Virus record (IMG/VR): IMGVR_UViG_3300048925_000614
Location: 1-41,164 of that record
DNA from: a virus
Strand: one strand, 5' to 3'
DNA length: 41,164 nucleotides
The notes beneath the pieces are model-generated. The model was not told the origin of the DNA. It saw only the letters and a program-made list of their open reading frames with translations, and did not search any database. Below are positions 7,619 through 36,479 of this stretch, piece after piece (within the stretch, counting starts at the first letter, position 1; each line of letters starts with the position of its first letter). Both the position numbers and the translations under genes were made by a program.

Positions 7619-7646
7619 AGTCTAGCGAACTAGACTATGCAGTCAA
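7619..7646 (-). promoter_or_regulatory. Leftward early promoter PL with embedded operator
   Basis: On the minus strand, TTGACT (7641-7646) and TAGACT (7619-7624) are separated by 16 bp. The perfect palindrome AGTCTAGCGAACTAGACT (7619-7636) covers the downstream part of the spacer and the -10 box, so repressor binding would block polymerase. The design matches the rightward promoter at 9061-9088. Confidence 0.8.
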
Positions 7647-7650
7647 GGGC

Positions 7651-7666
7651 TCTAGACAAACTAGAC
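7651..7666. promoter_or_regulatory. Second left operator
   Basis: TCTAGACAAACTAGAC, the same half-sites as the other operators but with a 5-bp instead of a 4-bp centre. It lies just upstream of the PL -35 box, so it could cooperate with the promoter operator. Confidence 0.65.
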
Positions 7667-7701
7667 GCAGCTTTTTATGAACGTTCTTTGTTCTGTTCAG
7701 C

Positions 7702-8343
7702 TTATCGGAAGATCACGATGCCGAGCCCTACCACGACTGCCCCAAGGATGAATAGGGCAGTAGATGACAACTCTTTGAGTTGCTTGAAGAGGGGATCTAG
7801 GTCGCGCGGGGTCAGTGCAGGATCGGCTGCATGAGTGACGGGTTCATCTTGATCGGGCTTCGCGGGAGCTGGGTCTAGTATCTCAAAGCTGGAGCCGGCA
7901 ACAGTTCTGTGCGGGCTCTTCTCATCCCACACCTTGCTGCTTCCGTCTGGCTCCCAACCGTATTCCAGCCCTTCGACTGCAACAGTCATGCGGGAGAAGC
8001 GCTTGCCGGCGAGCCATGCCGAAATAAGGGCCTGCTGCTCAGCAGCATCCATCCCAATATGCCCATCGAAGGAGGCTTCATATCCGTAGTCAGGATCATC
8101 GAAGTCGTCCAAAAACGAGCAGAGTCCTACTCCACCGCTCTCCTTGGCGGCCGCCGAAATGGACCCCATTGGCACTATCAGGAAGGACCATGGGGCTGAA
8201 GAAAGATCACGATCCCCCTTGGTCCTAATGGTGGTTCCGCGCGCCAGCCGCCCCTTCACGAGTAGCGTTGCTCCCGAGGACTCGGCGGAGTGGTTGACAT
8301 GGAGGTCAACGGAGGAAACCTGTATCTTGATGTAGGCCTGCAT
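7702..8343 (-). CDS. Repressor-linked, C-terminally membrane-anchored protein, 213 aa
   Basis: Unrecognised protein whose start (MQAYIKIQVSSVDL) overlaps the CI stop as TAATG, so it is expressed in the lysogen with the repressor. The N-terminal about 140 residues look soluble and beta-rich; a Pro/Asp-rich linker follows (about 155-185); the last about 20 residues (TALFILGAVVVGLGIVIF) form a tail anchor. Genes in this slot commonly confer superinfection exclusion or other lysogenic conversion, which is the inference here. No catalytic motif is visible. Confidence 0.75.
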   Translation of the reverse strand: MQAYIKIQVSSVDLHVNHSAESSGATLLVKGRLARGTTIRTKGDRDLSSAPWSFLIVPMGSISAAAKESGGVGLCSFLDDFDDPDYGYEASFDGHIGMDAAEQQALISAWLAGKRFSRMTVAVEGLEYGWEPDGSSKVWDEKSPHRTVAGSSFEILDPAPAKPDQDEPVTHAADPALTPRDLDPLFKQLKELSSTALFILGAVVVGLGIVIFR

Positions 8344-9023
8344 TAGTCCTCCCAACTGCCTATCCAGCGGACCCGGCCAATGATCTGAATTGGGTGCCGC
8401 TTGTCGTCCATGCGCTTGGCCTTCTTCCAGTTATGGTCGCCAGTTGGGTTGTCTGCTTTGAAATAGACGATGTCGTCTAGTTGCTCACATCGCTTGACCT
8501 GGTACTCATTGTTGTGAGCGCCGGGAACAAGGATCACGAACAAGGCTCCATCTCTCGGCCTAGTGTCAGACGTATCAAAGAGGATGGCGTCGCCAGAGTG
8601 TATCCGTGGGTACATGGAGTCCCCCGATCCGTACATGACGGCCAAGGCATTCGCGCGGAGCCTCTTCCTTGCCAACGAGGACGCCTTGAACTTCAGCTTG
8701 TGGGTCTCGGCGTACTCGGATGCCTCAGGGCCACCACCGAGGCCAACTGCCTGGGAGTAGCCTTTCACATCATCCCAGTCTCCCTCCGAGATCTGCAGGG
8801 ACCCTTCCATTGGGCCGCGCCCATGCTGGATCCACTCTGCATTGACCCCCAAGGCTCGACTGAGCTTGTCCAGTGTCGTTGCCCGGATCTTCTCTGACTT
8901 GGTCGTGCCATCGAGGATGAAGTAGATGCCGGCCTTACTGAGCACCTTTCGGTTGATCAGGTCGGTCGGGGTCATGCCCCGGATCTCTAGTGCGCGCTTA
9001 ACGCGTTCAGCCATCGTGTCCAT
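8343..9023 (-). CDS. cI: CI-type repressor with LexA/S24 autoprotease domain
   Basis: 226 aa. Residues 3-65 form a helix-turn-helix domain (MAERVKRALEIRGMTPTDL, then LDKLSRALGVN). A linker leads to the S24 peptidase domain with the nucleophile in GSGDSMYP (Ser136) and the general base in QVKRCEQ (Lys177). SOS-induced RecA filaments would trigger self-cleavage and induction. No clear Ala-Gly scissile pair is visible; the Gly-rich VGLGGGP (about 93-99) is a candidate. ATGs at 9023 and 9014 are both possible; neither has a ribosome site, which suggests a leaderless transcript. Confidence 0.93.
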   Translation of the reverse strand: MDTMAERVKRALEIRGMTPTDLINRKVLSKAGIYFILDGTTKSEKIRATTLDKLSRALGVNAEWIQHGRGPMEGSLQISEGDWDDVKGYSQAVGLGGGPEASEYAETHKLKFKASSLARKRLRANALAVMYGSGDSMYPRIHSGDAILFDTSDTRPRDGALFVILVPGAHNNEYQVKRCEQLDDIVYFKADNPTGDHNWKKAKRMDDKRHPIQIIGRVRWIGSWED

Positions 9024-9032
9024 AGAACTAGA
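9018..9032. promoter_or_regulatory. Degenerate operator over the cI start codon
   Basis: Read on the minus strand, TCTAGTTCTATGGAC matches 12 of 15 bases of the PR operator (TCTAGTTGTCTAGAC) and contains the cI ATG. Position suggests negative autoregulation of cI at high repressor levels, comparable to a weak OR3. A TACTTT box at 9033-9038 (minus) just upstream could be the PRM -10. Confidence 0.5.
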
Positions 9033-9060
9033 AAAGTAGGCTGAATTCAGGCTAGAGCGC

Positions 9061-9088
9061 TTGACAATAGAGTCTAGACAACTAGACT
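9061..9088 (+). promoter_or_regulatory. Rightward early promoter PR with embedded operator
   Basis: TTGACA (9061-9066), 16 bp, TAGACT (9083-9088). The perfect 7-4-7 palindrome AGTCTAGACAACTAGACT occupies 9071-9088. Transcription should start near 9095, only about two bases before the cro ATG at 9097. Spacing, -10 sequence and operator placement mirror PL. Confidence 0.85.
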
Positions 9089-9096
9089 TAGCTTCC

Positions 9097-9306
9097 ATGG
9101 ACATGACCAAGTCGGCGGTTAAGGCCGCTCTGAACATCGAAACGGACGCGGGTCTCGCATCTCTTCTTGGGATCGGGCGCTGGGCTGTCGGCCAGTGGGG
9201 TGCTGATTCGGCTATCCCCAAGGCTCGCCAATGGCAGCTCCAGATCCTTAGGCCCGACCTGTTTGGACAAGCCCCAGCCCCGGCCCGCCGCAAGAGGGGG
9301 AGCTGA
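9097..9306 (+). CDS. cro: Cro-like YdaS-type repressor
   Basis: 69-aa helix-turn-helix protein reading MDMTKSAVKAALNIETDAG, then LASLLGIGRWAVGQWG and IPKARQWQLQILRPDLF, the layout of short Cro/YdaS-type repressors. It is the first gene from PR and divergent from cI, and ends in a basic tail (RRKRGS). No Shine-Dalgarno sequence precedes either ATG (9097 or 9103) and the predicted transcript starts almost at the codon, so translation is probably leaderless. Confidence 0.8.
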   Translation: MDMTKSAVKAALNIETDAGLASLLGIGRWAVGQWGADSAIPKARQWQLQILRPDLFGQAPAPARRKRGS

Positions 9307-9307
9307 G

Positions 9308-9562
9308 ATGCGCGTTAGTTCGGCTCTTGTCGGGCAGATCGTGTTGGCCGAGTGGCTGGACTCCAGCCGCAGCGATGGCTGGACCCGGGACGAGCCGGAG
9401 TCGGTCGAATCGCTCCGGTGCTTCTCAGCTGGCCGGCTGATCTGCAAGAGCACCGGTGCCGTGACGATTGCGGGGCACTGGACGGACGAGGAAAGCCCCC
9501 AGCGCAGTGGGTCGATGACGATCCCGACCAAGGCCCTCGTATCGCTGAGGGCCTTGGCATGA
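9308..9562 (+). CDS. Hypothetical early protein, 84 aa
   Basis: Begins MRVSSALVGQIVLAEWL after a GGGGAG ribosome site that lies in the end of cro. It alternates beta strands and acidic turns; no family recognised. It occupies the position of cII/early regulators but shows no helix-turn-helix. Confidence 0.6.
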   Translation: MRVSSALVGQIVLAEWLDSSRSDGWTRDEPESVESLRCFSAGRLICKSTGAVTIAGHWTDEESPQRSGSMTIPTKALVSLRALA

Positions 9563-16086: not shown

Positions 16087-16162
16087 GTTCGGGTAGCTCA
16101 ATCGGGAGAGCGCCGTCCTCCAAAGTCGGTGGTTGCAGGTTCAAGTCCTGCCCCGTTCGCCA
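16087..16162 (+). tRNA. trnW: tRNA-Trp (anticodon CCA), with stem mismatches
   Basis: 76 nt with encoded CCA. D-arm GCTC/GAGC, T-arm GCAGG-TTCAAGT-CCTGC, loop CTCCAAA giving anticodon CCA, and a 3' half very like bacterial tRNA-Trp. Three base pairs are replaced by U-U oppositions: positions 2-71 and 3-70 of the acceptor stem (GTTCGGG against CCCGTTC) and 30-40 of the anticodon stem. Confidence 0.75.
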
Positions 16163-25625: not shown

Positions 25626-25973
25626 ATGGCGAACCGCGCCGAACTGAACCGGATGGTTCTACTGAAGCTTGGCACGGTCGATGCCAACGAGGCCCCGGGG
25701 GCTGAGGACTATCAGGATGTGGATGTGCAGACTCTGGCGAAGCTGGAGGAGCTGTACGACGACGGCCTGATCCCCTTCGATCTAGAGGGGGAAATCCCCC
25801 GCAAATTCCTTGTCCACCTGTCATTCCTGGTCGCCTTGGAGCTGGTGGACGACTATGCGGCGCACTCTCGCGCCCAGACAATCGCAGCAGGTGCTGATCG
25901 CGGCCTGCGTGCCCTGTACCGCTTCGCTGCGCGTCCGTACTCCGGCGCGGTAGTGCCTTCGGAGTACTTCTGA
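25626..25973 (+). CDS. Head-completion/tail accessory protein, gp4-like
   Basis: 115 aa; start at 25626 (MANRAELNRMVLLKLG) after GGGAGGG. Contains LAKLEELYDDGLIPFDLEGE and LSFLVALELVDDYAAHS. It sits where P22 encodes gp4, the ring that joins portal and gp10. Shorter than P22 gp4. Confidence 0.7.
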   Translation: MANRAELNRMVLLKLGTVDANEAPGAEDYQDVDVQTLAKLEELYDDGLIPFDLEGEIPRKFLVHLSFLVALELVDDYAAHSRAQTIAAGADRGLRALYRFAARPYSGAVVPSEYF

Positions 25974-27181
25974 TGCGCTCCCAGCCCGTAAACCTGCTGG
26001 GCGGCTTCAACCGGGACGATGCTCCGTCGTGGTCTGTGCAGGATGTCGTGAACTACCTGCCAGTGGTGGCGGATCAGGCCGGCACTCGAACGCAATACAA
26101 GTTTCGGACGCCCCCGGGCCTGAAGCCGTTTCGGCGCATTGGGGCTGGGCCGATCCGGGGCATCCACAACGCCGAGGGCCGGCTGTTCGTCGTCTCGGGG
26201 CAGACGCTGTACGAGGTGACCAGCGCTGGAGTTGGCATCTCTCGCGGGACCATCCCCGGCGTTGGCCGGGTGCGGATGGCACACAACCAGGTCAAGAACG
26301 GGAACCAGCTCGCCGTCGTCAACGGCCAGTCCGGCTACGTCTACAACACCGCGACTCAGGTGTTCGCGCGCATCACGGACGAGGGCTTCCCCGGGGCGAT
26401 TGATGTCAAGTTCATTGACGGCTACCTGTTCTATCTGGAGCCGTTCGGCCGATTCTGGCTGCACTCGGACCTTGCCGATGGGCTGAACTACAACACGCTG
26501 GATCGCGGTGAGGCTGAAAGCCAGCCGGATCGGCTGGTAGGCCTCGCAGTCAATCAGGGTGAGGTCGTCCTGTTCGGCGAGCGGACTACGGAGTTCTTCT
26601 TCAACACGGGGCAGGGCACAGGGACCTTCCAGTCCCGAGACGCCACCATCGATGTGGGTTGTGCCTCGCTGCACACTGTCTGCAACCTCGACAACTCGGT
26701 CATGTGGCTGGGCAACGACGGGGTGGTGTACCGGCTGGAAGGCTATCGGGCCATCCCGATCAGCACCCGGTCGCTGGAGCGGGTCATCGCCGCCTATGAG
26801 TGGAAGTCGGCGTTTGGCTTCACCTGGGAGGACGAGGGCCACAAGGTCTACTACCTGACCTTCCCGAATGGGGAGACGTTCGGCTACGACGTGACGGTGG
26901 GCCTATGGCACCGCCGAGTGTCCAAGGGCTTCAAGCGCTGGCGGCTGAGCGGCTGTGTTTCGTGGGGTCGGAAGTGGATTGGCACAGACTTCCAGGACGG
27001 CCGCTTGTGGGAGCTGGATTGGGGCTATGTCATGGAGGGGTACGACGAGCTGATTTCCGAGTTCACAAGCGGCGTGTTCCACGATGACGGGAACGTCATT
27101 GGCCTACCTGAAGCCGAGTTCCTGTTCGATACGGGGCGTAAGCAGACAGTGCCGATTGGCTTCCCGGGGGATCCGCCATGA
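25973..27181 (+). CDS. Packaged-DNA stabilisation protein gp10-like, N-terminal propeller part (split gene)
   Basis: 402 aa; begins MRSQPVNLLGGFNRDDAPSW and includes GWHRRVSKG-like and FGYDVTVGLWHRR blade motifs. gp10 forms the tail hub with the needle. The propeller region is complete, but the protein stops at ...KQTVPIGFPGDPP, where related proteins continue with a C-terminal beta domain. That domain occurs 1 kb downstream, at the end of the 27807-28460 gene. See findings. Confidence 0.9.
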   Translation: MRSQPVNLLGGFNRDDAPSWSVQDVVNYLPVVADQAGTRTQYKFRTPPGLKPFRRIGAGPIRGIHNAEGRLFVVSGQTLYEVTSAGVGISRGTIPGVGRVRMAHNQVKNGNQLAVVNGQSGYVYNTATQVFARITDEGFPGAIDVKFIDGYLFYLEPFGRFWLHSDLADGLNYNTLDRGEAESQPDRLVGLAVNQGEVVLFGERTTEFFFNTGQGTGTFQSRDATIDVGCASLHTVCNLDNSVMWLGNDGVVYRLEGYRAIPISTRSLERVIAAYEWKSAFGFTWEDEGHKVYYLTFPNGETFGYDVTVGLWHRRVSKGFKRWRLSGCVSWGRKWIGTDFQDGRLWELDWGYVMEGYDELISEFTSGVFHDDGNVIGLPEAEFLFDTGRKQTVPIGFPGDPP

Positions 27182-27807
27182 CCATTGGCCTTGATGTACA
27201 CGTTCTGGTGATGGACTACACGCCGGCTGAGCAGGTGGAGCGGTGCAGAGAGTCCATCCGAGTCGCGGCTGAGCAGGCCGGCTACCCAGTCGTAGCCCAC
27301 TTCCTCCCCGGCGTACTCGGCCACCTCGGCAAGGCCCGGGGGAACGGGTATGCCTTGGGGTCACACCAGTACGTCACCCACGTTGACGATGACGACTGGT
27401 TGCAGCCTGACGCCTTCGCGGTTCTCGCCGAACAACTGAGGGCTGGCGTGGAGGCCGTGACGACCGGCGAGAACCTTGTGCAGGGCGATTCGGTGGCCCC
27501 GGCTCCTGAGTCCCGGCACCACTTGGCAGTCTACCGCCGTGAGTACGTGCGCGGGCTTGGTTACGCCAGTTTCCGCTACTACCCCGATCAGTACCTGCTG
27601 AGCATGTGCGAGCCGGTGCACCTGCCTGTCTGCGTCTACAACCACCGAATCAACATGAATAGCGGAAGCCGGCGGCAGCGCCGAGCCAAACCGCATGAGG
27701 CCCGGTTGGAGCTGGAAGTGATCAAGCGACCCGACCTGGCGGTGGTCGAGAACGCCTGCCCAGCCTACTTCGCGTCGGCCATAGACCGTGAACTGAGAGG
27801 TAAATAG
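27178..27807 (+). CDS. GT-A type glycosyltransferase, 209 aa
   Basis: N-terminal Rossmann-like strand-helix (MTIGLDVHVLVMDYTP, YPVVAHFLPG), a HLGKARGNGYALGS segment and the metal-binding motif THVDDDDWL (Asp 70-73), typical of family 2/A glycosyltransferases. No membrane anchor. It lies inside the disrupted gp10 gene, overlapping its stop by 4 nt. Acceptor unknown. Confidence 0.8.
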   Translation: MTIGLDVHVLVMDYTPAEQVERCRESIRVAAEQAGYPVVAHFLPGVLGHLGKARGNGYALGSHQYVTHVDDDDWLQPDAFAVLAEQLRAGVEAVTTGENLVQGDSVAPAPESRHHLAVYRREYVRGLGYASFRYYPDQYLLSMCEPVHLPVCVYNHRINMNSGSRRQRRAKPHEARLELEVIKRPDLAVVENACPAYFASAIDRELRGK

Positions 27808-28460
27808 TGGCGAACCTTCTGCAGATCCCTGCCGATTGGGATGCCACATCGGCGCAGTACAACGGTGGCGTGTGGGAGGTGGCGGTCAACGGTGTGTATG
27901 CCGAGGTCCCGAACGGTTCCATCCGCTACATCGGTACGGTCCAGCCCGGCGACACGATCCAGGCCACTGTGACCTACGAGATCACCGAGGCGATAGACCA
28001 AGACCTGTGGTTCCTCGTCTACTCGTCCAGCGGCGCAATCATCGCCCACAAGATGTGGAACGCGGACCATTCGTCGCCGACCACGGGGCAGTTTGACGTA
28101 GATGTGGACATGACGGACTGGCCTTGGGTCATTCTCGGTGCCTCCACGTCATCCGAAGAGTTCGTGGACCCGCTGAGCTACGGGAAGGTGGCTGAGGTGT
28201 TCATCTCGCCGCCCATCGCCCCGCCGGAACCGCCTCCGCCGGACCACCACGTCCTTATCTGCTACAGCAAGGATGGTGGCCGGAACTGGTCGAACTGGAA
28301 GAAACGCTCGCTGGGCGACATCGGTCAGTACGCCGACCGCATCCGAGTCAGGCTGACCCGTCTGGGCGTTGGCCGGCAGTGGGTGTTCCGAGTCCGAGTC
28401 TCCAGCCCGATCAAACGGGACTTGCTGGGGGCGGTAGCAAAGACAGAGCCGAGGTCCTGA
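27807..28460 (+). CDS. Hybrid protein: new beta domain fused to the gp10 C-terminal domain
   Basis: 217 aa, GTG start overlapping the stop of the glycosyltransferase gene. Residues 1-135 are beta-rich and unlike gp10 (GGVWEVAVNGVYAEVP, IQATVTYEITEAIDQD). A Pro-rich hinge (APPEPPPPDHH) leads at about residue 146 into a C-terminal gp10-type domain: ICYSKDGGRNWSNWKKR, GDIGQYADRIRVRLTRLG. Probably restores tail hub function in two polypeptides, though this is inference. Confidence 0.8.
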   Translation: MANLLQIPADWDATSAQYNGGVWEVAVNGVYAEVPNGSIRYIGTVQPGDTIQATVTYEITEAIDQDLWFLVYSSSGAIIAHKMWNADHSSPTTGQFDVDVDMTDWPWVILGASTSSEEFVDPLSYGKVAEVFISPPIAPPEPPPPDHHVLICYSKDGGRNWSNWKKRSLGDIGQYADRIRVRLTRLGVGRQWVFRVRVSSPIKRDLLGAVAKTEPRS

Positions 28461-29006
28461 ATGCTTGTGATCGATGAGTTCCTGACTGATGCGCAATCAG
28501 TCCGGGAGGATGGCTTGCGCGCCTCATACGTCGATTGGCCCGCGCCAGACGGAGAGGTCTACAAGCGCATCGCCATCGCGGAGGTTCCCGGGCTACGGGA
28601 GGGCATCGAGCGGGCAATGGGGCCTGTGCAGATGCTAGGAATGGGCTATCGGCTCAACTTCAATGGCGAGCTTCCCAGCGCCGCTATCCACTCGGATCTT
28701 GGTTGGGGCACTCATGCCGCCGTCCTCTATCTCAGCGAAGGCGAAGGCGGGACAGCCTTCTGGCGGCATCGCGAGACCGGAGCAAGCCGCATCGATCCTG
28801 GCGACATGGTCCTGTTCGAGAAGGTCCGGGATGACTGGAATGACGCCAGCCGCTGGGAGCGCATCGGGTTGGCAGAGATGAAGCTTGGGCGGTGCGTGAT
28901 CTACGAATCAGCGCTGTTTCATAGCCGTTGGCCGTTTGCGGCCTTCGGTGATGACGCAGAGACAGGGCGACTCGTAGCAGTCGCCTTTTTTACGCCGGAG
29001 GGCTGA
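28461..29006 (+). CDS. 2OG-Fe(II) dioxygenase-like protein, 181 aa
   Basis: Iron-binding triad in the usual order: His77 and Asp79 (AIHSDLGWG), and His154 (ALFHSRWP), with Arg170 (TGRLVAVAFF) as the likely 2-oxoglutarate ligand. FYxHSDxGW and the YLSEGEGGTAFW strand match the double-stranded beta helix. Substrate unknown; could hydroxylate a virion protein or a nucleotide. Starts 1 base after the previous stop. Confidence 0.8.
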   Translation: MLVIDEFLTDAQSVREDGLRASYVDWPAPDGEVYKRIAIAEVPGLREGIERAMGPVQMLGMGYRLNFNGELPSAAIHSDLGWGTHAAVLYLSEGEGGTAFWRHRETGASRIDPGDMVLFEKVRDDWNDASRWERIGLAEMKLGRCVIYESALFHSRWPFAAFGDDAETGRLVAVAFFTPEG

Positions 29007-29452
29007 TGGAAATACGCAAAGCAACACTGGCCGACGTGCCGGTGATCGTCGCCATGTCCGCAAGGTTCTACCCAACCACCCACTACGCCGATTGGTGCGA
29101 GATGGACGAGGCGAGCGTGGCAGAGCTGGCTTCAATGCTGATCAACGATCACGTGTTCTTGGTTGCCGAGGCGGATGGCCGATTGATTGGCATGGTCGGC
29201 GTGTTCGTCGCTCCCTTCCTGTTCAACCGGAACCGGAACTTCGCATCCGAGGTCGTGTGGTGGGTCGCCCCGGAAGCGCGGGGAGGCCGGGCTGCATATG
29301 CGCTTCTCTCTGCCATTGAGGAGCCATGTAGAGAGTTCGGTGCAGATCGCATCCAGATGGTTCACATGCCCAACAGCCCGCCGCAGGCCGCTGCTCTCTA
29401 CGAGCGGACCGGCTACTCCCGTTCCGAAATCAGCTACACAAAGGATATTTGA
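29006..29452 (+). CDS. GNAT acetyltransferase, 148 aa
   Basis: MEIRKATLADVPVIVAMSAR, then LIGMVGVFVAPFLF, EVVWWVAPEARGGRAAYALL (acetyl-CoA site, Gly-rich) and a C-terminal AAALYERTGYSRSE, the full GNAT layout. Overlaps the oxygenase stop. Might act on the same target as the oxygenase and glycosyltransferase. Confidence 0.85.
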   Translation: MEIRKATLADVPVIVAMSARFYPTTHYADWCEMDEASVAELASMLINDHVFLVAEADGRLIGMVGVFVAPFLFNRNRNFASEVVWWVAPEARGGRAAYALLSAIEEPCREFGADRIQMVHMPNSPPQAAALYERTGYSRSEISYTKDI

Positions 29453-29453
29453 C

Positions 29454-30152
29454 ATGGCAGCTGTTACTTCTGGCGTGGTTGTTGGGGCTGGCTCTGCATT
29501 GCTGCAGAACCGAGCTGCGAACAAGGCTACCGCCGCTGCGAACAGGGCGAGCAATCAGGCAAATGCTCTCCAGACTCAGATCTACGATCAGGCGCGCAGT
29601 GACCTTGCCCCATATCAGCAGGCAGGCACAAACGCACTGACGGGCCTGAATGCTCTGGCCGCTGGCGACTACTCGGGCTTCAACGAAAGCCCCGACTACA
29701 AGTTCGCCCTACAGCAAGGCCTGCAGGCAGTAGATCGTTCGGCGGCGGCGCGCGGCTCGATGTACTCAGGCGGGAACCTCGTTGACCTGAACAACTACGC
29801 TCAAGGGGCTGCATCGCAGAACCTAGGCAACTACCGAAACAGCCTGATGAACCTTGCGAACATGGGCGCAAGTTCCAGCTCGGCGCTGGCCGGAGTCGGA
29901 CAGAACTATGCAGGTGCCTACGGGCAGAACCTGAACAACTCTGCATATGCGCAGGGTAGCGCGGCGCTCTCCCAGGGCAACAACTGGTCGCAGGCGTTGG
30001 CTGGACTGGGCGGGTTGGCTAACAACTACGTGCAGGGGCGGCAGAGTGCTTACAACCCGCAGGGGAACCTTCTGGCGGGGCAGATGACGACCGGTCAGGG
30101 CAGCGCTTACAACTTCGGGAACAACCTTTCCAACTTCAAGGGGCGAGTGTAA
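29454..30152 (+). CDS. Ejection protein gp7-like
   Basis: 232 aa, very close in size to P22 gp7. Begins MAAVTSGVVVGAGSALLQNR; Gly/Ala/Asn-rich with GLNALAAGDYSGFNESPDYK and repeated GQNYAGAYGQNLNNS-like motifs. One of three internal proteins injected with the DNA. First of the 7/20/16-like set. The ATG at 29454 is two bases after the GNAT stop. Confidence 0.75.
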   Translation: MAAVTSGVVVGAGSALLQNRAANKATAAANRASNQANALQTQIYDQARSDLAPYQQAGTNALTGLNALAAGDYSGFNESPDYKFALQQGLQAVDRSAAARGSMYSGGNLVDLNNYAQGAASQNLGNYRNSLMNLANMGASSSSALAGVGQNYAGAYGQNLNNSAYAQGSAALSQGNNWSQALAGLGGLANNYVQGRQSAYNPQGNLLAGQMTTGQGSAYNFGNNLSNFKGRV

Positions 30153-31735
30153 TGGCGCAGGCATACCAGCAGTTCTCGCCCCTCGCAGCGCTGGGCTTTG
30201 TACAGCAGCAGGGCGAGATCGGGCGCGAGCGGGGGAAGGAGAATCGCCTGAATCAACTGGCGAGTCTGGCCTACAGCGCCCCCGCAGATCAGCGCGATTC
30301 GATCCTGTCGCAGGCCGCATCCGTTGATGCGGGTGCAGCGCAGGGTCTAGAAAAGCAGATGGCCTATTCGGATGAGCGCCGCAACGCCAGCATGGTGAAC
30401 ATGGCGCGTCTTCTGACCAATGCCCCGGAGCAGTCCCGGGCTGGTCTGTACCGCAGCATGGTGCCGACGCTATCCCGTTTCGGCCTGTCTGACATGCCGC
30501 AGGACTACACGCCGGAAACTGCTCCGGTCATCATGCAGGCTGCGCAGTCGCTGGTGCAGGCGTATCAGGGTACGAATGCGACGCCGACGGACGTTCGCTC
30601 CTTCCAGATGATGACCGCAGGCCTTTCACCTGAAGATCAGATGCGGGCACGTCGGATCAATCTCGGCCTCGATGGACGCGCTTCCAATGCTGGCTATGGG
30701 TTCTTTGAGTTCGACGGCGCAGATGGCCGCAAGCGCATGGGGCGCAACAATCCGAGGACCGGCGACCGCGAGGTGTACGACGAGGCTTCAGGGGAGTTCG
30801 TACCCCTGGGCGGAATTGGTGGCGGTGTAACCACTCCGCCGCAGGGTCAGGATGGGCAGCATTTCGGCGACTTCACGTCTCTTGCTGGTGAGTTCCCGGG
30901 CGTCACCATGACCAGTGGTATGCGCACTGCTGAACGTAACCAGCAGGTTGGCGGCACCCCTAACAGCCAGCACCTGACTGGCACGGCAGCTGACTACGCA
31001 GTACCCCAGCAGCTGAAGCCGGCCTTCATGTCCCGCGCTCGCCAAATGGGCTATCAGGCGATTGATGAGGGCGACCACATCCATCTCCAGCTGCCGCGTG
31101 GCGGGAGGTCCGCATCGGCAGGGCTGGCGGTCGGGCGTCGCAAGGAAGACGAGGCGAGGGCCGTTGCACAGGCTCAGTCGGACGTTGAGTTGGGCGCTTT
31201 GCCAACAAGGCTCGGGATGCAGACTGATGCTGATATTGCCAAGGCGCGGGGGGTGGAGCAGGCCAAGAGTGAGCAAGAGCGAGCCAGTACTGAACGGGCC
31301 AAGACGGCTCAGCTCAACAATGTGGATCGCGGTTTGACTCGAATTGATGAGGCCTTGAAGAACCTCACGGGGAGTCTGATTGACACTGGCCCCATTGATG
31401 GGCGGCTGATGGTTTCGACGCCGCAGGGGCAGGAGCTTGAGGCTGCGGTTGGCGCGATCCAGAACGATATGCTGGCGCTCACCCGCGTCCCAGGCATTGG
31501 CTCGCAGTCCGACCTTGAGGCGAAGATCGCTAACCTGAAGTATCCGTCGATCTACAACCATCCGTCCGTCAACGCCGCCAACGTCAAGCAGTTGAGGGAA
31601 TTCATGGTGGATCTGCGTCGCCAGATCACCGGAAGTTCCGCAGGCAGTGGTGGGCGGGCAATCGTCCGTACTGGCACATCCAATGGCCGGAAGGTCATCC
31701 AATATAGCGACGGGAGCGTCGAGTATGGCAATTGA
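30152..31735 (+). CDS. Ejection protein gp20-like with embedded M15-type peptidase domain
   Basis: 527 aa. N-terminal about 230 residues are helical. Residues about 248-316 carry a D-Ala-D-Ala carboxypeptidase (M15) motif set: TMTSGMRTAERNQQVGG, SQHLTGTAADY (His274, Asp281) and DEGDHIHLQLP (His309/His311). The remainder is helical. It follows the gp7-like gene and overlaps the next by 11 bases. The enzyme could cut the peptidoglycan during injection. Confidence 0.85.
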   Translation: MAQAYQQFSPLAALGFVQQQGEIGRERGKENRLNQLASLAYSAPADQRDSILSQAASVDAGAAQGLEKQMAYSDERRNASMVNMARLLTNAPEQSRAGLYRSMVPTLSRFGLSDMPQDYTPETAPVIMQAAQSLVQAYQGTNATPTDVRSFQMMTAGLSPEDQMRARRINLGLDGRASNAGYGFFEFDGADGRKRMGRNNPRTGDREVYDEASGEFVPLGGIGGGVTTPPQGQDGQHFGDFTSLAGEFPGVTMTSGMRTAERNQQVGGTPNSQHLTGTAADYAVPQQLKPAFMSRARQMGYQAIDEGDHIHLQLPRGGRSASAGLAVGRRKEDEARAVAQAQSDVELGALPTRLGMQTDADIAKARGVEQAKSEQERASTERAKTAQLNNVDRGLTRIDEALKNLTGSLIDTGPIDGRLMVSTPQGQELEAAVGAIQNDMLALTRVPGIGSQSDLEAKIANLKYPSIYNHPSVNAANVKQLREFMVDLRRQITGSSAGSGGRAIVRTGTSNGRKVIQYSDGSVEYGN

Positions 31736-33884: not shown

Positions 33885-34685
33885 ATGACCTCGTACAACT
33901 CCTACGACCCCGCTCCCGTCTTCTTCGGTCTGGATGGGATCACTCCTTGCGTCAATGGCTCCCTGACCTTCTGTGACTTGGGCACCACCACCCTGAAGGA
34001 CACGTGGTCCGACCCGGATCAGGCGACCCCGAACAGCAACCCGGTCCTGCTGGACTCGGCTGGCCGGTCCAATACGAATATCTGGCTGGACGGGGGCTAC
34101 ACCATCACCCTCAAGGACAGCGACGGGGTAGTCGTCTGGGTCCGCGACGTGGACAGCGGGCAGGGTGCCGGCGCGTCCATTCCGGCGCTGGAGTCGGGGA
34201 GGTTCCTGTCAAACGATGGGTCGAACCTGATCTGGGCCGACGTTCGGCAGGTTCCGGACCCATCCGGATCTCCCGATGCGATCCTCGGGACGGACGGCGC
34301 GAACCTGATCTGGACCCCGAAACCCGAGCCGCCACCGGCTGCAGAGGTGTCGGGCGTCGATACCGTCATCATCAAGACGGGCGGCGATACCGACTGGCAG
34401 ATCCTGAAGGGGTCTGGCACCGCGCCAGTCTCTGGCACCGCTCAGACCTCCCTCGCCGTGACCTTCGCAACCCCGTTCAAGAGCGGGACTGTGCCGAATG
34501 TGTCCATCACGCCAGCCCCGGGCAACCAGCCCTATGGCCCGGTCGTCCCGTACCTGTCTGCAGCGCCCACCGCGAGTGGCTTCACGGCTGTCTTTGACGT
34601 TGCCGAGGGCAATACCGGTGGCTCAACTGTCACCAATTCCGTGGCCTTTCAGTGGATCGCACAGGGACAGGTCGCCGCATCATGA
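33885..34685 (+). CDS. Tailspike/tail fibre head-binding-domain protein, 266 aa
   Basis: Opening domain (about 1-95, YDPAPVFFGLDGITPCVNGS, LLDSAGRSNTNIWLDGGYTI) resembles the virion-binding domain of podoviral tailspikes. A repeated NGSNLIW-type motif (NDGSNLIWAD, TDGANLIWTP) and a beta-rich C-terminal domain follow. It lacks a long spike beta helix, so the fibre is assembled from this and the two next proteins. Confidence 0.75.
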   Translation: MTSYNSYDPAPVFFGLDGITPCVNGSLTFCDLGTTTLKDTWSDPDQATPNSNPVLLDSAGRSNTNIWLDGGYTITLKDSDGVVVWVRDVDSGQGAGASIPALESGRFLSNDGSNLIWADVRQVPDPSGSPDAILGTDGANLIWTPKPEPPPAAEVSGVDTVIIKTGGDTDWQILKGSGTAPVSGTAQTSLAVTFATPFKSGTVPNVSITPAPGNQPYGPVVPYLSAAPTASGFTAVFDVAEGNTGGSTVTNSVAFQWIAQGQVAAS

Positions 34686-35404
34686 AGAACCTTGGATTCG
34701 CATACCAGCCGGGGCAGGGCGAGCCGATTGCGGACTCTGCTGGCCGCGTAACGCGGGTGTGGTCCAACTACTTCGCCAAGCTGGCGCTCGTCCAGACGAG
34801 CGACGAACTCCGCGACCTGTATCTGGCGCTGGCCGAACGTGTCGGAAAGCTGGAGGACGGGCAGGCCCTGACCATCATCGGCCGCAACTCCGTCAAGACT
34901 GTCGGAACCGGTCAGGTCGAAATCCAGCTCGTCGGGGACGAGGATGCCCCTGGGAGCACCGAGTATTACGGGACGAACGCAGCCGGCGAGAAGGGATTCC
35001 ACCCGGTTGCTGATGCAATCGAGGTGGAGGTCACCGAGCTGACCAAGGAGGTTGGCCTCGACGGCATCATCACCCTTGGCCTAGCCGATGTGCCGGACAG
35101 CGGCATGGGCACCCTGCAGAGAACCCAGTTCGACGCGAAGGGGCGGAAGACTGGGACCAGCTCCGCCACGACCGATGACCTTCCAGAAGGCTCGACCAAT
35201 CGCTACTTCCCAGAGGCCCCCATTGATGGGAAGCAGTACGCACGGAGGGATGCTGCTTGGACCGAAGTCGATGCCATTTCAATCCAGTTCCCCTTCTATG
35301 CGACGTCCGGGGCCTTTGATCCTGTTCCGCTAACCGCCAACAGGGAGCTTCCGTTCTTCTTGACAAATGGGACGCAGGCCAACATTCCAATGGTGACCGC
35401 ATGA
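34682..35404 (+). CDS. Tail fibre component, 240 aa
   Basis: Start overlaps the previous stop as ATGA. MKNLGFAYQPGQGEPIADSA; a helical stalk (LRDLYLALAERVGKLEDG), and then beta-rich collar/shaft segments (LADVPDSGMGTLQRTQFDAK, TTDDLPEGSTNRYFPEAP). TNRYF-type signatures occur in fibre shafts. Probably trimeric. Confidence 0.7.
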   Translation: MKNLGFAYQPGQGEPIADSAGRVTRVWSNYFAKLALVQTSDELRDLYLALAERVGKLEDGQALTIIGRNSVKTVGTGQVEIQLVGDEDAPGSTEYYGTNAAGEKGFHPVADAIEVEVTELTKEVGLDGIITLGLADVPDSGMGTLQRTQFDAKGRKTGTSSATTDDLPEGSTNRYFPEAPIDGKQYARRDAAWTEVDAISIQFPFYATSGAFDPVPLTANRELPFFLTNGTQANIPMVTA

Positions 35405-36183
35405 CTGATGCAATCCCAGTAAAGCGCCGCGATGCAACGAGCCTGGGGGAGTTCGCAGCGACAGATCGCGCGCCAATGCGATTCCTGCAGCTCCCGAGGG
35501 GCTACATTGATGGCCTGAAAATGGAGTGGCTGTCTGCCACTTCGCTGCGAATTACCACTGGTGCGGCCTATATTCCGATCCTCGATCAAGTCCTTGATGT
35601 GCCGTCTGCGATCACTAAATCCAGCATCTCACTTTCGGCCAGCGCATGGCATCACCTGTACCTTTTCAGCAATGCGGGAGTTCCGGATTTTGAAGTTTCG
35701 GCCACTGCACCGGCAGCACCCTACAGCGGCTCAGCACGAACGAAAACGGGCGACACATCACGTCGCTACGTCGGCTCAGTGAAGACCGATGCGTCAAGTC
35801 AGATCATCAAGTTTCTACAGGCTGGGAACTCGGTTCTGTATCAAGCGAACACTGCCTTGGCACCGCTTCGCATTCTGAGCAACGGGCTTGCGACGACAAC
35901 TACCGTTGTTTCTGCAGCGGGCGCAATTCCGGTCACGTCGAAGAAGATGACCGCGCGACTCGTAAGCCTGAGCGCAACGCCATCCAACAATCTGTTCGTT
36001 GCCAATCCATTTGCTTTTCCCGTTGTGTCCGATCCGAACTTCATCATTGCTATAGGCAATAACGTCAACGTCTACGTGCCTATCGCTACCGACGATTCCC
36101 AGAACATCAACTACGTGTATGGCGTCGGTCCGGGAGCCACTGGTGCGTATGTCGAAGTCAACGGCTATGAGTATGAGAGGTGA
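35401..36183 (+). CDS. Tail fibre distal/host-recognition protein, 260 aa
   Basis: Overlaps the previous gene by 4 nt. Beta-rich with tandem LSASAWHHLYLFSN, RRYVGSVKTDASS strands typical of receptor-binding tips. The gene looks less GC-rich than its neighbours (for example 35601-36100), as expected for a recently exchanged receptor-binding protein. No known fold is recognised. Confidence 0.65.
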   Translation: MTDAIPVKRRDATSLGEFAATDRAPMRFLQLPRGYIDGLKMEWLSATSLRITTGAAYIPILDQVLDVPSAITKSSISLSASAWHHLYLFSNAGVPDFEVSATAPAAPYSGSARTKTGDTSRRYVGSVKTDASSQIIKFLQAGNSVLYQANTALAPLRILSNGLATTTTVVSAAGAIPVTSKKMTARLVSLSATPSNNLFVANPFAFPVVSDPNFIIAIGNNVNVYVPIATDDSQNINYVYGVGPGATGAYVEVNGYEYER

Positions 36184-36185
36184 CG

Positions 36186-36479
36186 ATGTACGCAATTTGC
36201 GGTGATGGCTACAGGGCAATCTCTGGCCCGAATGACTTGCTCCCAGGGGAAACGCTGGCTGCCGAGATACCTGCTGACGCAATGCGCGCACTTCGCATTG
36301 TTGAGGCCAGGGTTGGCCGCGACCTGATGCTCCGGGCATCGGATTGGACCCAAATGCCGGATGCCCCGATGAGTGAGGCGACCCGGGCCAGCTGGGGCGG
36401 GTACCGGCAGGCGCTCAGAGACCTTCCGCAGCAGCCGGGGTTCCCGGATTGCGCCTGGCCGACAGCGCCCGACGCCTAA
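36186..36479 (+). CDS. Tail fibre assembly chaperone-like protein, 97 aa
   Basis: Start at 36186 (MYAICGDGYRAISGP) after AGAGG. The C-terminal motif RASDWTQMPDAPMSEATRA, ...WGGYRQALRDLPQQPGFP is the recognisable element of tail fibre assembly proteins. It directly follows the fibre genes. Confidence 0.8.
   Translation: MYAICGDGYRAISGPNDLLPGETLAAEIPADAMRALRIVEARVGRDLMLRASDWTQMPDAPMSEATRASWGGYRQALRDLPQQPGFPDCAWPTAPDA

Follow-up and report, generated by a model that had tools for sequence, protein, structure and literature searches.

A probable two-chain variant of the P22 gp10-type tail hub with an exchange slot ahead of its C-terminal domain

The window analysed here is the whole 41,164-nt stretch of virus record IMGVR_UViG_3300048925_000614, and it carries the gene set of a temperate podovirus. 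Its relevant features are given below, where CT is the C-terminal domain of the hub, GT is glycosyltransferase, and the loci of relatives carry L numbers.

Left arm of the window: integrase, repressor and RecT-like genes
Within the window: large terminase gene
21752: portal gene, P22-like
24486: capsid gene, P22-like
25626: 115-aa gene in the adaptor position, without a family match
25973..27181, + strand: hub chain A, comprising the N-terminal segment and beta-propeller of a P22 gp10/Hc3-type hub without the C-terminal domain (phrog_578, Pfam Phage_stabilise, L054 model)
27029..28264, + strand: extent of the exchange cassette relative to L006 (blastn of the window against L006)
27178..27807, + strand: GT family-2-like gene of the cassette, 209 aa (Pfam PF13641 6.2e-5, under the cutoff; phrog_19440 9e-14)
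27793..27809, + strand: GTG start of chain B, preceded by a probable ribosome-binding site, GAGAGG, at the 3' end of the GT gene (sequence read directly)
27807..28241, + strand: beta domain and proline-rich hinge, chain B residues 1-145, fast-evolving (all-beta AlphaFold2 model; dN between L005 and L008)
28242..28457, + strand: CT of the hub on chain B, Asp-box-like YSKDGGRNWSNW ... GAV (phrog_578, phrog_19101, alignment with fused and split relatives)

The hub gene at 25973 is placed after the portal gene, the capsid gene and the gene in the adaptor position, as is the case for P22 gp10-type hubs, and tail-fibre-like genes are found further downstream at 33885-36476. When GenBank phages were searched with the region for distant DNA similarity, the sole match was to the capsid region of Phage CBW1004C-Prop1. 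The only tRNA gene of the window, a tRNA-Trp with anticodon CCA, lies at 16087-16162 (+).

The 402-aa product of 25973-27181 ends in GFPGDPP. It matches phrog_578 ('head closure Hc3', the P22 gp10 family) with an E value of 2.3e-108 over profile positions 1-400 of 486, and passes the Pfam family Phage_stabilise (PF11134) at 31.9 bits against a cutoff of 25. In P22 gp10-type hubs the C-terminal domain is part of the same polypeptide, whereas here it is carried by the separate gene at 27807. This chain B gene (27807-28460) encodes 217 aa, and its residues 149-216 match both phrog_578 positions 407-472 (E 4.5e-8) and phrog_19101 positions 521-592 (E 1.9e-28). Since the two pieces adjoin at 400/407 in phrog_578 numbering, the split is exact. 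By tblastn, the CT residues align to the C-termini of intact gp10-like proteins in five cultured phages: Vibrio phage 1.211.A, P26218, Pam5, VvAW1 and PBR31. A profile search of the window for the CT gave no second copy. The first-pass annotation had described a divided gp10-like hub gene, with its C-terminal domain placed behind a beta domain of about 135 residues and a proline hinge in a hybrid gene, and a GT gene between both parts; this description is borne out, including the resemblance of the end of chain B to gp10 C-termini. Membership in the gp10-type hubs therefore holds for both window genes jointly and for neither alone. The pair is best classed as a variant of the P22 gp10-type hub, in which the fold and sequence features are present jointly but the single polypeptide is not.

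The genes of the cassette are tightly coupled, with an ATGA overlap between the hub stop and the GT start and a TAGTG overlap between the GT stop and the chain B start. The GT product contains VDDDDW as a candidate for the acidic metal-binding motif of family 2, and its Pfam scores fall just below the cutoffs (23.6 vs 27 and 21.6 vs 23.3). Residues 1-135 of chain B are predicted by AlphaFold2 to be all-beta and are followed by the proline-rich hinge; the model is of moderate confidence, with a mean pLDDT of 70 and a pTM of 0.49. A Foldseek search with the beta domain found nothing significant in PDB or BFVD. The PDB list was headed by carbohydrate-binding modules, the best being a CBM4 module, but at E values of 0.04 or worse, so no lectin is claimed. 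The beta domain is also the most variable part of the region, as a comparison of L005 with L008 gives a dN of 0.59 for the beta domain, 0.059 for the hub core, 0.025 for the GT and 0.006 for the CT.

Relatives can be used to place this arrangement in context. Scans of viral and genome contigs yielded about 60 loci with the same hub, and a search with fused hubs gave a further 80 loci, partly on the same contigs. The first set includes loci from Stenotrophomonas, Xanthomonas and Lysobacter genomes, such as S. humi DSM 18929 (L018) and S. koreensis DSM 17805 (L020). By profiles of the hub core and the CT, the CT has a gene of its own in 51 loci of a clade of Xanthomonadales temperate podoviruses (about 48 non-identical loci, the cores of L004/L021 and L043/L044 being identical). 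In 44 of the 51, the CT gene directly follows the hub gene. In relatives that have no GT, the hub is immediately followed by a stand-alone CT gene of 73-95 aa, as in L006, L009, L021 and over 40 more; that of L006, a locus close to the window, is 73 aa long. Whole genes lie between hub and CT in the window, L005, L007, L008, L018, L060 and L077. This distribution bears on the origin of the split. According to the first-pass annotation, an intact gp10 gene of this phage was interrupted by a GT gene and its C-terminal domain ended up in a hybrid gene. The position of the GT between both parts fits such an insertion, as does a profile search of the scanned loci, which found the pair of GT and beta domain in the window, L005 and L008 alone. 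However, the split is present in more than 40 relatives lacking the GT, among them the sister lineages L006, L007 and L018. Because the CT is separate in 51 loci of the clade, the GT does not appear to have broken an intact hub. The short CCGCC-type sequence proposed to be shared by the junctions is at chance level, as TCCGCC is found 41 times in the window against 43.7 expected. A recent GT insertion is thus very improbable. That the GT wanders as an insert was also considered and rejected. Its profile hits only the window, L005 and L008, and a scan of viral contigs for the GT itself found no relatives, the latter being weak evidence, as L005 and L008 were also missed. The hubs of L005 and L008 end at the same point as that of the window, an outcome that the first-pass annotation had taken as speaking against a split, yet both carry the same CT hybrid gene and so leave the split unrefuted. 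A sequencing or assembly artefact was considered and is ruled out by the identical gene order in L005 and L008, which derive from other metagenomes.

Fused hubs also exist. L022, L023 and L054 are fused and lie within the clade, and among distant relatives (about 31% identity or less) with a scorable CT almost all are fused, many with short linkers; some distant relatives have no scorable CT and one looks frameshifted. On the hub-core tree, where the window groups with L005, L008, L007, L018 and L006 with full support, the fused state requires at least 4 changes. Given the fused outgroups, an early split followed by re-fusions is one account that the tree would allow, with the polarity unproved. 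The split has the appearance of a stable design rather than of a single accidental break in a gene. In Xanthomonas sp. NCPPB 1128, the same fused reading frame of 997 residues occurs twice on one contig, as L022 and L025, about 37 kb apart; these are possibly two prophages or a duplication.

What the first-pass annotation left out is a wider pattern, namely an exchange slot between the hub core and the CT. A blastn alignment of the window with L006 loses homology at 27028 and regains it at 28265, from where it continues for 2.7 kb at 77%. Five further pairs (L056/L059, L019/L032, L042/L044, L030/L032 and L020/L033) enclose unrelated inserts between cores of 94-99% identity and CTs of 89-99% identity; for the first three of these, the ranges are 96-99% for the core and 92-99% for the CT. 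Overall, inserts are unrelated or only partly related in 46 of the 55 pairs whose cores are at least 80% identical. The slot thus combines high turnover with conserved attachment flanks, a feature of receptor-binding modules. The inserts are of several types. Among them are BNR or WD40 propellers preceded by Ig domains, a GTA-type TIM barrel, a ConA/LamG-like lectin domain, SPRY, and the tail-fibre families phrog_4176 and phrog_4950. For the window, L005 and L008, the slot is filled by a GT plus a beta domain, the latter fused to the CT.

The same module can be found in different chain arrangements. For instance, the TIM barrel and CT of L094 form a separate 595-aa chain (7626-9413) that matches phrog_19101 end to end, while L022 (10001-12955) joins hub, TIM barrel and CT in one 985-aa protein whose module is 73% identical to that of L094. 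Likewise, a tail-fibre-family protein is free in L018 and has a homologue fused to the CT in L060. Proteins that are joined in one phage but encoded side by side in another frequently function together, and such cases here suggest that hub, module and CT are together on the particle. The family phrog_19101 joins a GTA-type TIM barrel to the hub CT, and would be explained as a chain B with a TIM module.

In L007 (9154-10203) and L018 (11574-12629), genes of the tail-fibre families phrog_4176 and phrog_4950 lie between the hub core and the CT. The hub tails of both loci carry short repeats such as GSLRSLFQQG, and their CT has lost part of the Asp-box motif, which counts against the reading favoured below.

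A detached CT could be a relic, with chain A working without it and the CT being a non-structural remnant, or acting only as chaperone or assembly factor of the cassette. The CT does close the cassette in all loci in which it was detected, and in the model of chain B alone (pLDDT 70) it has three strands as compared with five when L054, a naturally fused orthologue, is modelled. The smaller number of strands would be expected if the CT needs the rest of the hub, and may also be explained by a shallow alignment. Selection, co-variation and start signals argue against a relic. The dN/dS of the CT is mostly 0.02-0.24, which indicates purifying selection (the window/L006 comparison gives 0.43, and L056/L059 have too few changes to judge). 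CT distances track hub-core distances with a Mantel r of 0.78, while the highest of 2000 permutations reached 0.32; no clear trend was found for the CT to follow the cassette rather than the core, few pairs sharing a cassette. Start signals are conserved as well. The CT start codon lies -7 to +4 nt from the hub stop in 43 of 44 adjoining cases, and an SD-like motif precedes it in 22 of 44, compared with 4-7 of 44 at control positions. In the fused hub L054, moreover, the CT is integral and confidently modelled. A relic is therefore improbable, although the CT may conceivably act as a chaperone, and the CT is a functional gene.

The same start signals bear on whether programmed frameshifting or readthrough of the stop still yields a single fused hub. 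In favour of this, 44 loci have hub and CT genes that overlap or almost touch. All three relative reading frames occur among these 44, however, which excludes frameshifting or readthrough as a general route; SD-like motifs are common before the starts, and in the window and the six other loci named above, whole genes lie between the two parts. This explanation can be given almost no weight.

The AlphaFold2 model of L054 (pLDDT 84, pTM 0.87) matches P22 gp10 (8eap) over its full length with a TM of 0.82 and 469 columns. It also matches the Sf6, Pam1 and Pan3 hubs and, more loosely, the SU10 and T7 nozzles. With the hubs of P22 (gp10), Sf6 (gp8), Pam1 and Pan3 (phrog_578, PF11134; 8eap, 8u10, 7sg7, 7eeq, 9vyg), L054 shares the same fold over the full length at a TM of 0.79-0.82, and further likenesses are the similar place among the late genes and the sequence homology of the CT. 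Those hubs are one chain of about 440-490 aa with no insert at this position, unlike the two or more chains and exchange module described here. In the virion, P22 gp10-type hubs form a hexamer between the adaptor and the needle. In the T7 nozzle, the fibre dock is located between the end of the propeller and a C-terminal platform that is built from both chain ends (PMC6702177), and in the SU10 nozzle the platform likewise combines N- and C-terminal parts and touches the adaptor (PMC9509320). T7 gp12 and SU10 offer a likeness in the propeller, the outward fibre-attachment part and the platform from both chain ends (PMC6702177, PMC9509320), but they are single chains with the fibre dock built in as a domain or loop, and the fold match is loose. 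Our assignment of the CT to the platform is carried over from T7 and SU10, hubs that share the fold but little sequence.

Taken together, we favour, at a probability of about 0.72, a two-chain P22 gp10-type hub in which the CT completes the fold and the interval between core and CT is an exchange slot whose module probably faces the host. Chain A (25973) would give the N-terminal segment and propeller, and chain B (27807) would give the CT that completes the hub fold and would display the fast-evolving beta domain, hinged to the CT by the proline segment. Recombination between the conserved flanks would swap modules in the slot, which could be carried on the tail of chain A, as separate genes, or on chain B ahead of the CT. 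By analogy, the slot would be the position where the T7 fibre dock joins the propeller to the C-terminal platform domain, and the module would be displayed outward, most likely touching the host surface. That the hub works as two chains had been proposed in the first-pass annotation and stands as the best reading; we infer the association of the chains in the virion, their position on the particle and receptor binding. The GT perhaps modifies the displayed domain or a surface glycan. Given the downstream tail-fibre-like genes at 33885-36476, receptor binding may depend mainly on proteins other than the slot module. Indeed, the split hub could be real and its module serve another purpose, such as virion stability, environmental adhesion or competitor exclusion. 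Ig, propeller, ConA lectin and SPRY are general binding folds, and the separate tail-fibre-like genes would agree with such a role, but tail-fibre families are found in the slot itself and its position corresponds to a fibre dock (PMC6702177). We consider another purpose unlikely, though less so than the other alternatives, and retain the two-chain hub with a host-facing module. A broader form of this reading, which we rate at even odds, is that one domain of an essential, symmetric hub, the CT, has become a detachable docking part and that a second chain completes the hub fold in trans. The two-chain joint would then be a general socket for host-recognition modules on either chain, which can be exchanged without disturbing the hub, and the chain break would move, close and reopen over time.

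Module exchange in tail fibres of other phages similarly involves a conserved attachment end and variable distal domains (PMC10386132). The likeness lies in conserved attachment with variable domains, while here the slot is inside the hub, with both flanks conserved and on two chains. The 595-aa phrog_19101, annotated as unknown function, is alike in having the same CT together with a TIM barrel in one chain, and differs in that chain B of the window has a beta domain in place of the barrel. The literature searched, mostly outside subscription journals, contained nothing on a gp10-type hub divided in this way. The pattern is far wider than one insertion, as dozens of relatives share the two-gene hub. 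If true, a stable two-chain hub with a slot would be a route to place variable recognition domains on a tail core and a naturally occurring example of a structural protein built up from two parts. It would also explain the unannotated family phrog_19101 and flag many small 'hypothetical' genes as hub parts.

Other genes of the region may be mentioned. Three possible modification enzymes lie 3' of the hub (27178-29452, +), namely the GT, a DUF6445 protein and a GNAT acetyltransferase. The DUF6445 protein has weak similarity to 2OG-Fe(II) oxygenases and carries the phrog label 'minor coat protein'. In some relatives, this position is taken by other genes, such as another GNAT or a cupin-like protein. 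Further along, 3' of a DNA-ejection-type gene, a 527-aa gene (30152-31735, +) is endolysin/peptidase-like at residues 251-312. By eye, this segment is present in the L005 and L006 homologues and missing in those of L004 and L009, which suggests a swapped enzymatic insert.
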